Shown here: in pieces, positions 32,669 through 52,440 of the stretch
Position numbering within the stretch: the first letter of the stretch is position 1
Layout: the number at the start of each line of letters is the position of its first letter
From: Kitasatospora sp. NA04385
Lineage (GTDB): Bacteria > Actinomycetota > Actinomycetes > Streptomycetales > Streptomycetaceae
Length of the DNA: 64,000 nucleotides
NCBI RefSeq assembly: GCF_013364235.1
Contig: NZ_CP054919.1
Coordinates: 3,034,247-3,098,246, forward strand
Direction of reading: 5' to 3'
The notes under the pieces: model-generated
The model's database searches: none
What the model was told of the DNA's origin: nothing
The model's input: the letters and a program-made list of their open reading frames with translations, nothing else
Program-made: the position numbers and the translations under genes

Positions 32669-32717
32669 CCGAGGGCGCCGCGCACCGTCCGGACGGAACG
32701 GTGCGCGGCGCCCTCGG
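32669..32717. terminator. bidirectional terminator before sucD
   Basis: A 20-bp perfect stem (32669-32688 with 32698-32717) closes a 9-nt loop, 10 nt beyond the sucD stop, between convergent genes. Confidence 0.85.
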
Positions 32718-32726
32718 GCGTACTGA

Positions 32727-33617
32727 CTACTGCGCGGCGGCGAACAGCTCGCGGGCCAGGCGGGCGGTCTCGGACGGCGTCTTGCCGACCTTGACGCCGG
32801 CGGCCTCCAGGGCCTCCTTCTTCGCCTGGGCGGTGCCGGAGGAGCCGGAGACGATGGCGCCGGCGTGGCCCATGGTCTTGCCCTCGGGCGCGGTGAAGCC
32901 CGCGACGTAGCCGACGACCGGCTTGGTGACGTGCTCGGCGATGTAGGCCGCGGCACGCTCCTCGGCGTCGCCGCCGATCTCGCCGATCATCACGATCAGC
33001 TCGGTCTCCGGGTCCTCCTGGAACGCCTTGAGGGCGTCGATGTGGGTGGTGCCGATGACCGGGTCGCCACCGATGCCCACCGCGGAGGAGAAGCCGAGGT
33101 CACGGAGCTCGTACATGAGCTGGTAGGTCAGGGTGCCGGACTTCGACACCAGACCGATCTTGCCCGAGCCGGTGATGTTGGCCGGGATGATGCCCGCGTT
33201 GGACTGTCCGGGGCTGATCAGGCCGGGGCAGTTCGGGCCGATGATGCGGGTCTTGTTGCCCTTGGCGCCGGCGTGGGCCCAGAACGCGGCGGTGTCGTGC
33301 ACCGGAACGCCCTCGGTGATGACCACGGCGAGGCCGATCTCGGCGTCGATCGCCTCGATCACGGCGGACTTGGTGAACGCCGGCGGCACGAAGATGACGG
33401 TGACGTCGGCACCGGTCTTCTCGATCGCCTCGACCACGGTGCCGAACACCGGGACCTCGGTGCCGTCCACGTCGACGGTGGTGCCCGCCTTGCGCGGGTT
33501 CACGCCGCCGACGATCTGAGTGCCGGAGGCGAGCATGCGGCGGGTGTGCTTCATGCCCTCGGAGCCGGTCATGCCCTGGACGATGACCTTGCTGTCCTTG
33601 GTAAGGAAGATAGCCAT
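32727..33617 (-). CDS. sucD: succinyl-CoA synthetase, alpha subunit
   Basis: The TCA-cycle enzyme SucCD makes succinate and ATP/GTP from succinyl-CoA. The product is 296 residues. CoA-binding region: [19 protein letters not shown] and GGVNPRKAG. The catalytic phosphohistidine is in [30 protein letters not shown] is also a family signature. ATG start 17 nt after the sucC stop, so the two form an operon. Confidence 0.97.
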
Positions 33618-33634
33618 GGTGTTGAGTCCCTTCC

Positions 33635-34807
33635 TTACTTGTTGGCCAGCTCGGCGGCGCGGTCAGCGGCGCCGTCCATGGTGTCCACCTGCTCGACCAG
33701 CGGGTGGTTGGCGTCGGTCAGGATCTGGCGACCGAGCTCCGCGTTGTTGCCGTCCAGGCGGACGACCAGCGGCTTGGTGACGGCCTCGCCCTTGCTCTCC
33801 AGGAGCGCGAGGGCCTGCACGATGCCGTTGGCGACCGCGTCACAGGCGGTGATGCCGCCGAAGACGTTGACGAAGACCGACTTGACGTCGGCGTCGCCCA
33901 GGATGATCTCCAGGCCGTTCGCCATCACCTCGGCGGACGCGCCGCCGCCGATGTCGAGGAAGTTGGCCGGCTTCACGCCGCCGTGGTTCTCACCGGCGTA
34001 CGCGACGACGTCCAGGGTGCTCATGACGAGGCCCGCGCCGTTGCCGATGATGCCGACCTGGCCGTCGAGCTTGACGTAGTTCAGGCCCTTGGCCTTCGCC
34101 GCCGCCTCCAGCGGGTTGGCGGCGGCCTTGTCCTCGAGCGCCTCGTGCTCGGGCTGGCGGAACTCGGCGTTCTCGTCCAGGGAGACCTTGCCGTCCAGGG
34201 CGATGATCTTGCCCTCGCCGGACTTGATCAGCGGGTTGACCTCGACCAGGAGGGCGTCCTCCTTGACGAAGACGACCCAGAGCTTCTGCAGGACGTCGGC
34301 GACCTGGTCGGCGATCTCGGCCGGGAACTTCGCGGCGGCGACGATCTCGGCGGCCTTCTCCGGGGTCACGCCCTCGTTCGCGTCGACCGGGATCTTGGCC
34401 AGCGCGTCCGGGTTCTCCTCGGCCACGACCTCGATCTCCACGCCGCCCTCGACGCTGGCCATGGCCAGGAAGGTGCGGTTGGTGCGGTCGAGCAGGAAGG
34501 AGACGTAGTACTCCTCCTTGATGTCCGCGGTCTGGGCCAGCATGACCTTGTGGACGGTGTGGCCCTTGATGTCCATGCCGAGGATCGCCTCGGCCTTGGC
34601 CACGGCGTCCTGCGGGTCGGACGCGAGCTTCACGCCACCGGCCTTGCCTCGGCCACCCACCTTCACCTGAGCCTTGACGACGGCTCGGCCGCCGAAGCGC
34701 TCCGCGATGGCGGCAGCGTCTGCGGCGGTCTCGATGACATCGCCGTCAAGCACGGGTACGCCGTGCTTGGCGAAGAGGTCCCTCGCCTGGTACTCGAACA
34801 GGTCCAC
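33635..34807 (-). CDS. sucC: succinyl-CoA synthetase, beta subunit
   Basis: The product is 390 residues. An N-terminal ATP-grasp fold starts [20 protein letters not shown] and contains [19 protein letters not shown]-terminal CoA ligase domain: [34 protein letters not shown] and [15 protein letters not shown]. It provides the nucleotide site and pairs with SucD. GTG start. First gene of the sucCD operon. Confidence 0.97.
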
Positions 34808-42606: not shown

Positions 42607-42612
42607 TTGACA
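42607..42612 (+). promoter_or_regulatory. TTGACA -35 hexamer
   Basis: An exact -35 consensus 95 nt upstream of the 47-residue ORF. No good -10 at 17-19 nt is visible. Confidence 0.3.
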
Positions 42613-42706
42613 CCCGGCACCGCTCCCCGCACCCGATGTCCGCACCATCCGACGGAACGGGACGCTCCCCGGCGCCCCCTGACGCACCGTCGACCGGAGG
42701 AACCCG

Positions 42707-42850
42707 ATGACCCGCACCCGCAGCATCCGGCAGCGCGCCGCCGTCCGGCGCATCACCCTGCACCACGCCGCCCGCCGGGCCGCCCTCGCCAGCGGCTGGG
42801 GCCGCCGCCACCGCACCGCCACCCACCGGCCGAACGGAGACCGGGCATGA
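42707..42850 (+). CDS. 47-residue basic peptide, coupled to DUF5691
   Basis: ATG start with GGAGG 7 nt upstream, one of the best ribosome binding sites in the window. The product is strongly basic: MTRTRSIRQRAAVRRITLHH ... RAALASGWGRRHRTATHR. Its TGA overlaps the DUF5691 ATG (ATGA). It may be a real small protein, for instance a nucleic-acid-binding peptide, or a leader ORF for coupling. No homologue comes to mind. Confidence 0.6.
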   Translation: MTRTRSIRQRAAVRRITLHHAARRAALASGWGRRHRTATHRPNGDRA

Positions 42851-44415
42851 CCGCGCCCACGCTCGCCCCCGCCGACGACTGGGCCGACCTGCACGGCGCC
42901 GCCCTGCTCGGCACCGACCGCCGTCCGCTGCCGCAGGCCCGCACCCCGCTGGCCGCCGCCGTCGACCGCACCGAACCGGCCGGCGCGCTGCTCGACCTGG
43001 CCGCCGTCGCCGCCGTCCGCCGCCGGGCCGGCGCACTGCCCGCCCCCGCCGTGGAGACCCCCGCGGCCGCCCCGGACGACCCGCGGCCCGCCCTGCCCGA
43101 GGCCGCCGCCCGCCGACTGGCCGTGCTGCTCGGCACCCGCAGCGGCCACGGCGGCTCGGCCAACCTGGCCGAGCTGCTCCCGCAGTGGCTGACCGCGGCC
43201 CGCGCGCACGGCTACCGGCTGCCGCCCGCCCTGGTCCCGACCCTGCTGGACACCGCCCGGGCCCGTTCCGAACTGCGCTCCGACGCGGTCACGCTGGCCG
43301 GCCCGCTCGGCCGCTGGCTGGCCCCGCAGAACCCGGACTGGAAGTACGTCACCCGCACCGCCGGCGAGCAGGACCTCCTCGACCAGCCCGGTGAACTCCT
43401 GTGGCAGGAGGGCCTGTTCGCCGAGCGCGTCACCCACCTGACCAGGCTGCGCCGCACCGACCCGGCCGCCGGACTGGCGCTGCTCGCCTCCACCTGGAGC
43501 ACCGAGCGCGCCGAGGACCGGGTGCTGTTCCTGGACTCCCTCCAGGACGGCCTCTCCGCCGCCGACGAGGAGTTCCTGGAGGCCGCGCTCTCCGACCGCT
43601 CCAAGAACGTCCGGGCCACCGCCGCGGAACTGCTCTCCACCCTCCCCGGCTCGGCGCTCGCCGCCCGAATGGCCGAGCGGGCCGCCCGGGCCGTCCGGCT
43701 CGACGGCGACCGGCTGCACGTCACGGCGCCCGCCGCCTGCGACGCCGCGATGCAGCGCGACGGCATACCGCTCAAGTCCCCCACCGGGCGCGGCGAACGG
43801 GCCTGGTGGTTCGGCGAGGTCGTCGCGGGCGCCCCGCTCGACCGGTGGACCGCCGGGACGGGCCTCACCCCCGAGCAGCTGCTCGCGCTGCCGACCGTCG
43901 ACTCACCGGACGGCGGCGGCGCCGAGTGGGCCGAGGACCTCCGCGAGGCCTGGGCCCGCGCCGCCGTCCGCCAGCAGGACGCGACCTGGGCCCGCGCCCT
44001 GCTCGGCACCCCGCCGCGGCCCGGCCGCGACACCCGGGCCCCGGGCGCGCCCGCCAAGCTGCTGTCCGTCCTGCCGCCCGCCGAACGGGCCTCCTGGACG
44101 GCCGCGTTCGTCCAGACCCACGGGCTCGGCGACGCCTTCCAGCTGCTCGGCGCCTGCGCCACGCCCTGGACGCCCCCGCTCTCCACCGCCGTCGTCGCCG
44201 CGCTCAAGCGCGCCGCGGAACTCGGCTCCTACCCGTGGAGCCACAGCGGCGTCCTCGGCATGACCGAGCGGGCCCTCGCCCCCGAGACCGCCCCCGCCGT
44301 CGAGGCCCTGGCCGCCGACACCTCCCCGGACACCGCCTGGTCCGACACCTTCACCCGCCTCGCGGGCACCCTGCGCTTCCGGCAGGCGATGCTCGCCGAG
44401 CTGGAGAACTCTTAG
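42847..44415 (+). CDS. DUF5691 protein
   Basis: The 522-residue product begins with WADLHGAALLGTDRRPLP, a typical DUF5691 opening, and is a helical repeat-like protein: LLFLDSLQDGL-type helices, ALSDRSKNVRATAAELLSTL (HEAT-like) and the C-terminal AAELGSYPWSHSGVLGM. It is the usual neighbour of SWIM proteins in MoxR-VWA clusters. ATGA overlap with the small basic ORF. Function unknown. Confidence 0.85.
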   Translation: MTAPTLAPADDWADLHGAALLGTDRRPLPQARTPLAAAVDRTEPAGALLDLAAVAAVRRRAGALPAPAVETPAAAPDDPRPALPEAAARRLAVLLGTRSGHGGSANLAELLPQWLTAARAHGYRLPPALVPTLLDTARARSELRSDAVTLAGPLGRWLAPQNPDWKYVTRTAGEQDLLDQPGELLWQEGLFAERVTHLTRLRRTDPAAGLALLASTWSTERAEDRVLFLDSLQDGLSAADEEFLEAALSDRSKNVRATAAELLSTLPGSALAARMAERAARAVRLDGDRLHVTAPAACDAAMQRDGIPLKSPTGRGERAWWFGEVVAGAPLDRWTAGTGLTPEQLLALPTVDSPDGGGAEWAEDLREAWARAAVRQQDATWARALLGTPPRPGRDTRAPGAPAKLLSVLPPAERASWTAAFVQTHGLGDAFQLLGACATPWTPPLSTAVVAALKRAAELGSYPWSHSGVLGMTERALAPETAPAVEALAADTSPDTAWSDTFTRLAGTLRFRQAMLAELENS

Positions 44416-44435
44416 GGAGGAGAAAGGGGACAGAC

Positions 44436-44587
44436 CAGGGGCCCGGGGAACGGCGGGCTCGTGCTGCTGACGGCCGGAGCCCATCGAAGGTTCGTGCTGC
44501 TGCGTGTAGTGAACAGAACCCGAAGCAGCGGCACCCAACGGCAGTGAACCCGCAGCAGCCTGGGCCCCGCCGTTCCCCGGGCCCCTG
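44436..44587. repeat. 152-bp structured element with perfect 22-bp inverted ends
   Basis: The outer arms 44436-44457 and 44566-44587 are perfect reverse complements. Inside, GCTGCTG pairs with CAGCAGC, and a second internal hairpin pairs TTCGTGCTGCTGCG with CGAAGCAGCGGCAC with few mismatches. It fills the gap between convergent DUF5691 and icmB. It could be a bidirectional terminator, a structured RNA, or a miniature element; no target-site duplication is clear. Confidence 0.75.
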
Positions 44588-44602
44588 AGCACAGTGCGCT
44601 TC

Positions 44603-45007
44603 TCAGCTGGCGCGCAGGTTGGACTGCACCCAGCTGACGACGTCCTGGGTGGAGGTGCCCGGGGTGAAGATGTCGGCGACGCCGAGCGCCTTGAGCTCGG
44701 TGATGTCCGCGTCGGGGATGATCCCGCCGCAGAAGACCTTGATGTCCGCGGCGTCGCGCTCCTTGAGGAGCTCGATCACCTTCGCGCAGAGGGTCATGTG
44801 CGCGCCGGAGAGGATGGACAGGCCGATGCCGTCCGCGTCCTCCTGGATCGCCGTGTCGACGATCTGCTCGGGGGTCTGGTGGAGGCCGGTGTAGATGACC
44901 TCCATGCCGGCGTCGCGCAGCGCCCGCGCGATGACCTTGGCTCCCCGGTCGTGCCCGTCGAGCCCGGGCTTGGCGACCACGACTCGGATCGGCCCCGACA
45001 CCACCAT
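44603..45007 (-). CDS. icmB: isobutyryl-CoA mutase small (B12-binding) subunit
   Basis: The 134-residue product is a lone cobalamin-binding domain: [20 protein letters not shown] (D-x-H-x-x-G, the lower ligand His), [28 protein letters not shown] and FCGGIIPD. This matches IcmB, which pairs with the separate large subunit IcmA to interconvert isobutyryl- and n-butyryl-CoA, feeding polyketide precursor pools. ATG start with AGGAGG about 6 nt upstream. No icmA in the window. Confidence 0.88.
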
Positions 45008-45176
45008 GACTGCCTCCTGGACCACGTTGTCCACCACCCGGCCGTGCGGCCGCGGGCTCGGTGTTAACCACTTCTAACAGATCTGAGGGGAGGTTAGCGG
45101 CCCGGTGGGGCCGCCGTCCTTCCCCACCTGCCGAGAGGAGGGCAAAATCACAGCGTGCGGGGGCCGACCCGGCCCG

Positions 45177-52392: not shown

Positions 52393-52440
52393 ACGCCCCG
52401 GGCCCGGCACCCCCCGCGGGGGGTGCCGGGCCCGGGGCGT
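52393..52440. terminator. 48-bp perfect palindrome (bidirectional terminator)
   Basis: Every base from 52393 to 52440 is self-complementary about 52416/52417. It sits between convergent acyltransferase and response regulator genes. Confidence 0.85.

Follow-up and report, generated by a model that had tools for sequence, protein, structure and literature searches.

A REPIN- and MITE-like hairpin element, probably mobile, at gene 3′ ends in Kitasatospora, and its REP-like unit across the Streptomycetaceae

In the accessible text of the literature on canonical REP and BIME sequences, a four-base head precedes a small palindrome, and the repeats occur as singlets, doublets and tandem forms (PMC3686654, PMC6006769). 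The head, a 5′ tetranucleotide at the palindrome's base, reads GT[AG]G (PMC6006769, PMC3686654), and the rule given in the available part of PMC6006769 combines a GTAG or GTGG head with a stem of 7-20 and a loop of 2-5, while subclasses without the GT[AG]G head are reported there as well. REP doublets that form a hairpin are termed REPINs, and the accessible portion of the paper that describes them presents inverted short units with a spacer, a predicted hairpin and many extragenic copies, along with singlets and tandem clusters (Bertels and Rainey 2011, PMC3116915). Prokaryotic MITEs, among them the terminator-like SPRITE of Streptococcus pneumoniae, appear in the available text of PMC10969869 as short intergenic elements with inverted ends, no gene and a possible terminator role. 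Palindromes are also sites of short abundant transcripts in S. coelicolor and E. coli, many of them in 3′ UTRs, according to the accessible part of PMC4681348. Here we describe a repeat of Kitasatospora sp. NA04385 that resembles each of REPs, REPINs and MITEs, and departs from each.

The window analyzed is a 64,000-nt stretch of this genome, and the features of the locus are collected in Table 1. A preliminary description of the window had pointed to exact 22-bp inverted repeats 108 nt apart. This is confirmed: the two arms (44436-44457 and 44566-44587, 22 nt each) are 100% complementary across a gap of 108 nt, which is beyond chance, since none of 40 first-order Markov sequences of 64 kb each contained a perfect inverted repeat of at least 20 nt (gap up to 300; longest arm 17). 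The second, interior hairpin and the CTGCTG repeats of that description are both present as well, the former with 12-nt arms (44496-44507 and 44548-44559) that are 92% complementary and the latter as a pair of 14-nt direct copies, one at 44456 and one at 44489 (spacing 33, 93%), but covariation lends the interior hairpin no support. Beyond the convergent DUF5691 and B12-binding-domain genes lies a gene for a PcrA/UvrD-type helicase. The window also holds two other perfect inverted repeats, both ordinary hairpins: one of 22 nt with a 4-nt loop, between convergent genes (52393-52440), is probably an ordinary strong terminator, and one of 20 nt with a 9-nt loop, just past a minus-strand frame at 32727-33662 (32669-32717), is likely a terminator too.

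Table 1. Features of the element and its surroundings in the window
Feature	Position	Strand	Description
Complete element	44436-44587	.	Inverted pair of REP-like units flanking a conserved core; 152 nt
Left unit	44438-44457	+	GGGGCCCGGGGAACGGCGGG; head GGGG, 4-bp stem CCCG/CGGG, 8-nt loop; the usual CA precedes
Right unit	44566-44585	-	Sequence of the left unit, GGGGCCCGGGGAACGGCGGG, on the - strand; TG follows on the + strand
Core	44458-44565	+	108 nt; common to host, G023-G025, G009, G012 and G028 copies; G008 distantly similar
Direct repeat pair	44456-44502	+	14-nt repeat, both copies ending CGTGCTGCTG, 33 nt apart
Interior near-hairpin	44496-44559	+	12-nt arms, 92% complementary; no covariation support
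DUF5691 protein gene	42607-44415	+	ORF call, putative start; ends 20 nt before the element
B12-binding-domain protein gene	44603-45037	-	Ends 15 nt after the element; convergent

The element is dispersed through the host genome (G000, 8.4-Mb chromosome). A pattern search for doublets with both arms exact and a total length of 124-154 nt returned 44 copies. By BLAST, the best 40 of 179 candidates scored were all full-length matches, namely the window's own copy and 39 others at 82-90% identity, and the 20-nt arm was found at 183 places with up to 2 mismatches, compared with 4 for a reversed control. The BLASTN comparison proposed in the preliminary description thus reveals a multi-copy dispersed repeat, contrary to the single-copy, poorly conserved sequence that it had named as the alternative outcome. 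Ten genomes were searched with the exact-armed pattern. Three K. phosalacinea strains contain at least 32 (G025), at least 15 (G024) and at least 1 (G023) such copies, counts that are lower bounds, as these assemblies are drafts of 170, 340 and 230 contigs, respectively; there are three copies each in G009 and G014, one in G012, and none in G028, G011 and G008. Against a genome contig collection that may lack the host's closest records, the same pattern matched solely K. phosalacinea records (19 stretches). A looser DNA search of the genus matched 31 of 70 genomes, host included, many of them through the arm only. Carriage of the whole element by phages or plasmids is rejected, with no match in either at E 1e-5; one viral-contig match is a single unit within long open frames, which we take as chance. 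For closer study we assembled the 40 best BLAST matches of the host, including that of the window, and 40 copies from G025, G024, G023, G009 and G028, a set that leans to well-conserved copies.

Each element consists of two inverted units of about 20 nt, GGGGC-Y-CGGGGAAC-N-GCG-R-N, around a conserved core of about 108 nt. In the fetched host loci, CA usually stands directly before the unit: of 115 units, 106 have C at -2 and 96 have A at -1. The units are held in common across clades while the cores are exchangeable, and four core classes can be told apart: that of the host, K. phosalacinea, G009 and G012; that of G013 and G035, with total doublet lengths of 110-114 and 110-121 nt; that of G010 (91-92 nt); and that of G040 (92-93 nt). 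By BLAST at E 1e-3, the cores of the last three classes have no similarity to the host core or to one another. The core of the G008 doublets (total length 130-157 nt) is distantly similar to that of the host (best match 79% over 48 nt, E 6e-7), and G014 seems to be so as well, with 74% identity over the element. Two of the fetched host loci contain a 115-nt short form that equals the long form minus 33 nt, the spacing of the two CGTGCTGCTG repeats; loss of one 14-nt repeat copy with the spacer would give this length. The 91-92-nt doublets of G010 (L207-L212) are almost uninterrupted hairpins, reaching -98.8 kcal/mol, unlike those of the host, and in G013 (L201-L206) a limited set of sequences, e.g. 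TTGCACTATCCA, recurs immediately beyond the arms, as if the mobile unit had a choice of outer ends.

Units also occur singly and in tandem, for example as 6.6 copies of a 45-nt unit or in 31-nt steps. At about 1.786 Mb in the host (L039:2045-2340), the 6.6 copies of the 45-nt unit, each one arm plus a short spacer, run into a full element and have 3.8 copies of a 34-nt unit beside them; this array is possibly strain-variable. The unit reaches well outside the genus. Its general form is GGGGC-N6-CGGGGAAC-N-GCG-N19-N, mostly with CA before it, and in fetched loci of another genus of the family it has G at position 6 and C at position 19. This G-C form, GGGGCGCGGGGAACTGCGC, is present as an exact match in 230 of 394 Streptomycetaceae genomes and in 9 of 17 genera, with a maximum of 279+263 = 542 copies per genome; its reversed control gave 0 across the 394 genomes apart from a few single matches. 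The C/T form with CA is present in 24 of the 394, 17 of them Kitasatospora. In plasmids, a stretch with two such units gave 9 weak matches, 7 in Streptomyces, none of which lies under a gene listed in an incomplete gene table. No published description of this Streptomyces/Kitasatospora repeat was found in a search that left most subscription journals outside, and six variants of the unit string were not found in the literature text searched, which is largely without such journals.

Variation among the copies indicates what is being kept. Among 256 fetched units that match the motif exactly at all its other positions, 233 have a Watson-Crick pair between positions 6 and 19, where 115.6 would be expected if the two were independent (T-A 133, C-G 82, G-C 18, wobble 12, other 11). 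Another set of 250 units, defined by up to 3 mismatches before the other genus was added, gave C-G 102, T-A 103, T-G 26, C-A 13 and other 6. The neighboring pairs hardly vary, and positions 5 and 20 are C-C in 30 units. As 6/19 is one variable pair with three states in related copies, shared descent may explain part of this covariation. Of 99 doublets, 56 have different bases at position 6 in their two units, so the perfect match of the window's arms is not a rule of the family. Pairing is thus maintained inside each unit but often not from one unit to the other. What the copies preserve is the single unit, as it is in a REP, rather than the long hairpin.

Copies are found in excess at the 3′ ends of genes. 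Gene orientation was taken from codon GC composition, not from a gene finder, with 6 of 160 sides left without a call. Among host sides with a call, 58 of 78 are gene 3′ ends (p 1e-5), as are 49 of 76 around the copies of relatives (p 0.008). The median distance from stop codon to element in the host is 18 nt, a few distances (e.g. -191, -1007) being clear miscalls. The gene pairs around the 40 host copies are 23 convergent, 12 tandem, 3 divergent and 2 without an orientation call, and those around the 40 copies of relatives are 13, 21, 2 and 4, respectively. A cruder gene call for 39 host copies gave 21 convergent, 15 tandem and 3 divergent, and as a rough control, 9 of 39 adjacent gene pairs in the window are convergent. 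Like a factor-independent terminator, the window's element puts a strong hairpin 15-20 nt downstream of each stop codon in a convergent gene pair; unlike one, it has a 108-nt loop and dispersed near-identical copies, and a T-run terminator scan gave 0 hits, with no T-run after the hairpin. The earlier judgment that a simple terminator is not enough was right, though the element sits in a terminator position and probably doubles as a two-way terminator.

The sites themselves differ between genomes. None of the 29 other genomes checked has the element or its core at the locus orthologous to that of the window's copy (E 1e-3). Several relatives (e.g. G028, G012, G009, G042 and G008) have another long hairpin of other sequence there, which means that the element has taken the place of a terminator, been added to one or come to lie within one. 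The three nearest relatives retain pieces such as CAGGGGCC, and in G024 (L102) the site has a 34-nt perfect hairpin with the element's outer 13-14 nt and no core, which is either a deletion remnant or the ancestral terminator. Presence and absence also vary at four further host sites. At c1, the full copy is also in G025, reduced in G023 and absent in G009; at c2, it is half-length in G025 and absent or nearly so in G023 and G012. The copy at c3 is full-length in G025 as well (79% identity, damaged left arm) and is not in G023, G009, G024 or G028, with short unit-like pieces in G024 and G028, and the short form at c4 is absent in the five relatives read. When the flanks of the 40 copies of relatives were compared with those of the 40 host loci, 9 matched a host locus on both sides and another 3 on a single side or at an adjacent copy; the remainder may match host copies beyond the 40 compared. 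No clean empty site was seen; even the nearest relatives have diverged in the intergenic DNA around the copies, so that gain and loss are not separable site by site. From the dispersed copies together with the differences between sites, we infer that the element is mobile. Insertion into the loop of palindromic targets was considered and rejected, as the left and right flanks of a copy are not clearly more alike than those of other copies (5.70 for own and 6.01 for other flanks in G000; the lowest permutation fraction was 502/5000, in G010).

We also considered a Y1 (RAYT-type) transposase as the mobilizer. Y1_Tnp (PF01797) has 0 matches in the host and none in G008, G010, G012, G013, G014, G023, G024, G025, G028 and G035; it is present in 29 of 70 genomes of the genus, with one partial match each in G009 and G040. 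Across 394 genomes, PF01797 was found in 55 of 170 with at least 10 G-C-form units and in 73 of 224 with fewer (odds ratio 0.99), in a table that counts the G-C form only and in which genomes abundant in C/T-form units alone (G000, G013, G035) are classed as unit-poor. With up to 2 mismatches allowed, a unit-like site turned up in 1 of the 56 Y1 loci checked. Within the reach of PF01797, a Y1 mobilizer is not supported and has no link to unit number. No parent autonomous element with matching ends was noticed in the fetched loci or among the unit positions listed.

Set beside the systems described in the accessible text of the cited papers, the element shares inverted units, a hairpin and many extragenic copies with REPs and REPINs, but its unit begins with GGGG, usually after CA, and has a stem of 4 bp (5-20, 6-19, 7-18, 8-17) and a loop of 8 nt. 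With a canonical REP or BIME it shares the four-base head before a small palindrome, in which only the 6-19 pair covaries here, and the singlet, doublet and tandem forms. The core, unlike the REPIN spacer, is conserved in sequence within a clade. Neither a partner nuclease nor a RAYT gene flanked by repeats was found, the host having no PF01797 match and the family no association with it. By analogy, the element appears to work like a REPIN, with paired hairpin units, apparent mobility and intergenic placement, but differs from a REP in head, stem size and partner enzyme. We think it probable that it is a REPIN/MITE-like non-autonomous mobile element that is mobilized in trans. We hypothesize that an enzyme made elsewhere would recognize the two short hairpin-forming units in inverted order, perhaps reading each as a single-stranded hairpin, and would copy or move the whole piece of about 150 nt to new intergenic places. 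Most insertions that persist would lie immediately downstream of stop codons, and there the strong hairpin could act as a two-way transcription terminator.

The closest guess of the preliminary description was a MITE-like element, and its many dispersed copies, inverted ends, lack of a gene and different cores in other clades fit that guess, while neither a clear target duplication nor a parent element turned up. A classical MITE in the strict sense would have arisen by deletion from an insertion sequence that encodes a DDE transposase and has terminal inverted repeats of 20-22 bp, with the parent lost from this genome or not yet found. The compact, short, non-coding form fits, and conserved ends with unrelated cores in each clade are what one transposase acting on several MITEs would be expected to leave. 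Across 99 doublets (lengths 2-6, 8 and 9; offsets -2 to 8), however, target duplication was not clear at any setting, with only small excesses such as 5 vs 1.8 (length 3, offset 2) and 4 vs 1.4 (length 4, offset 5), which differs from the MITEs of PMC10969869 as its available text presents them. Single units and tandem unit arrays are unusual for a DDE transposon, pairing within the unit is not expected of a double-stranded binding site, and an unsystematic look saw no unit-flanked transposase gene. We therefore regard a classical MITE as an unlikely description of the element.

Slightly harder to credit is a module for terminators or mRNA ends that the host maintains, its spread relying on gene conversion and slippage among similar hairpins alone and not on a transposase. 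The terminator position would suit such a module, as would the tandem slippage arrays, the hairpins of other sequence at the window site in several relatives and the outer 13-14 nt shared by the 34-nt hairpin of G024. Conversion needs homology, yet most relatives' sites are without the element; the number of exact-armed copies runs from 0-1 to 44 between congeners, some of them drafts, and the conserved 108-nt core has no obvious terminator role.

The preliminary description had also raised a structured RNA. The predicted fold of 44426-44597 is very stable on either strand (+ strand, -106.6 kcal/mol with z -6.7; - strand, -100.9 kcal/mol with z -5.1). In an alifold alignment of 40 copies, only 1 of 38 pairs had any double change, and in one of 80 copies, limited to doublets of 126-164 nt and with 3 divergent G008 copies removed, 0 of 49 pairs had three or more; limited variation among the copies gives this covariation test modest power. 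A structured non-coding or cis-acting RNA whose long hairpin is the selected feature is thus very improbable, for all its stable fold and a core conserved within the clade, given no Rfam match in the window at gathering scores, hardly any compensatory change and arms that so often differ from each other at position 6.

We return to the REPIN/MITE-like element mobilized in trans. A broader proposal, which we offer tentatively and hold to be possible rather than likely, is that the Streptomycetaceae have their own family-wide REP-like DNA and clade-specific REPIN-like mobile hairpins, with a mobilizer other than a Y1 (RAYT) enzyme, that rewrite gene 3′ ends across the family. REP and REPIN systems are known with a dedicated Y1 nuclease, and here a look-alike for which no such partner was found extends across a bacterial family, among relatives of the leading antibiotic producers, and its units can number in the hundreds in a genome. 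The mobilizer becomes a defined search target, namely a gene that tracks unit number across genomes. If the copies terminate transcription, gene ends and read-through into neighboring genes would change in a lineage-specific manner.
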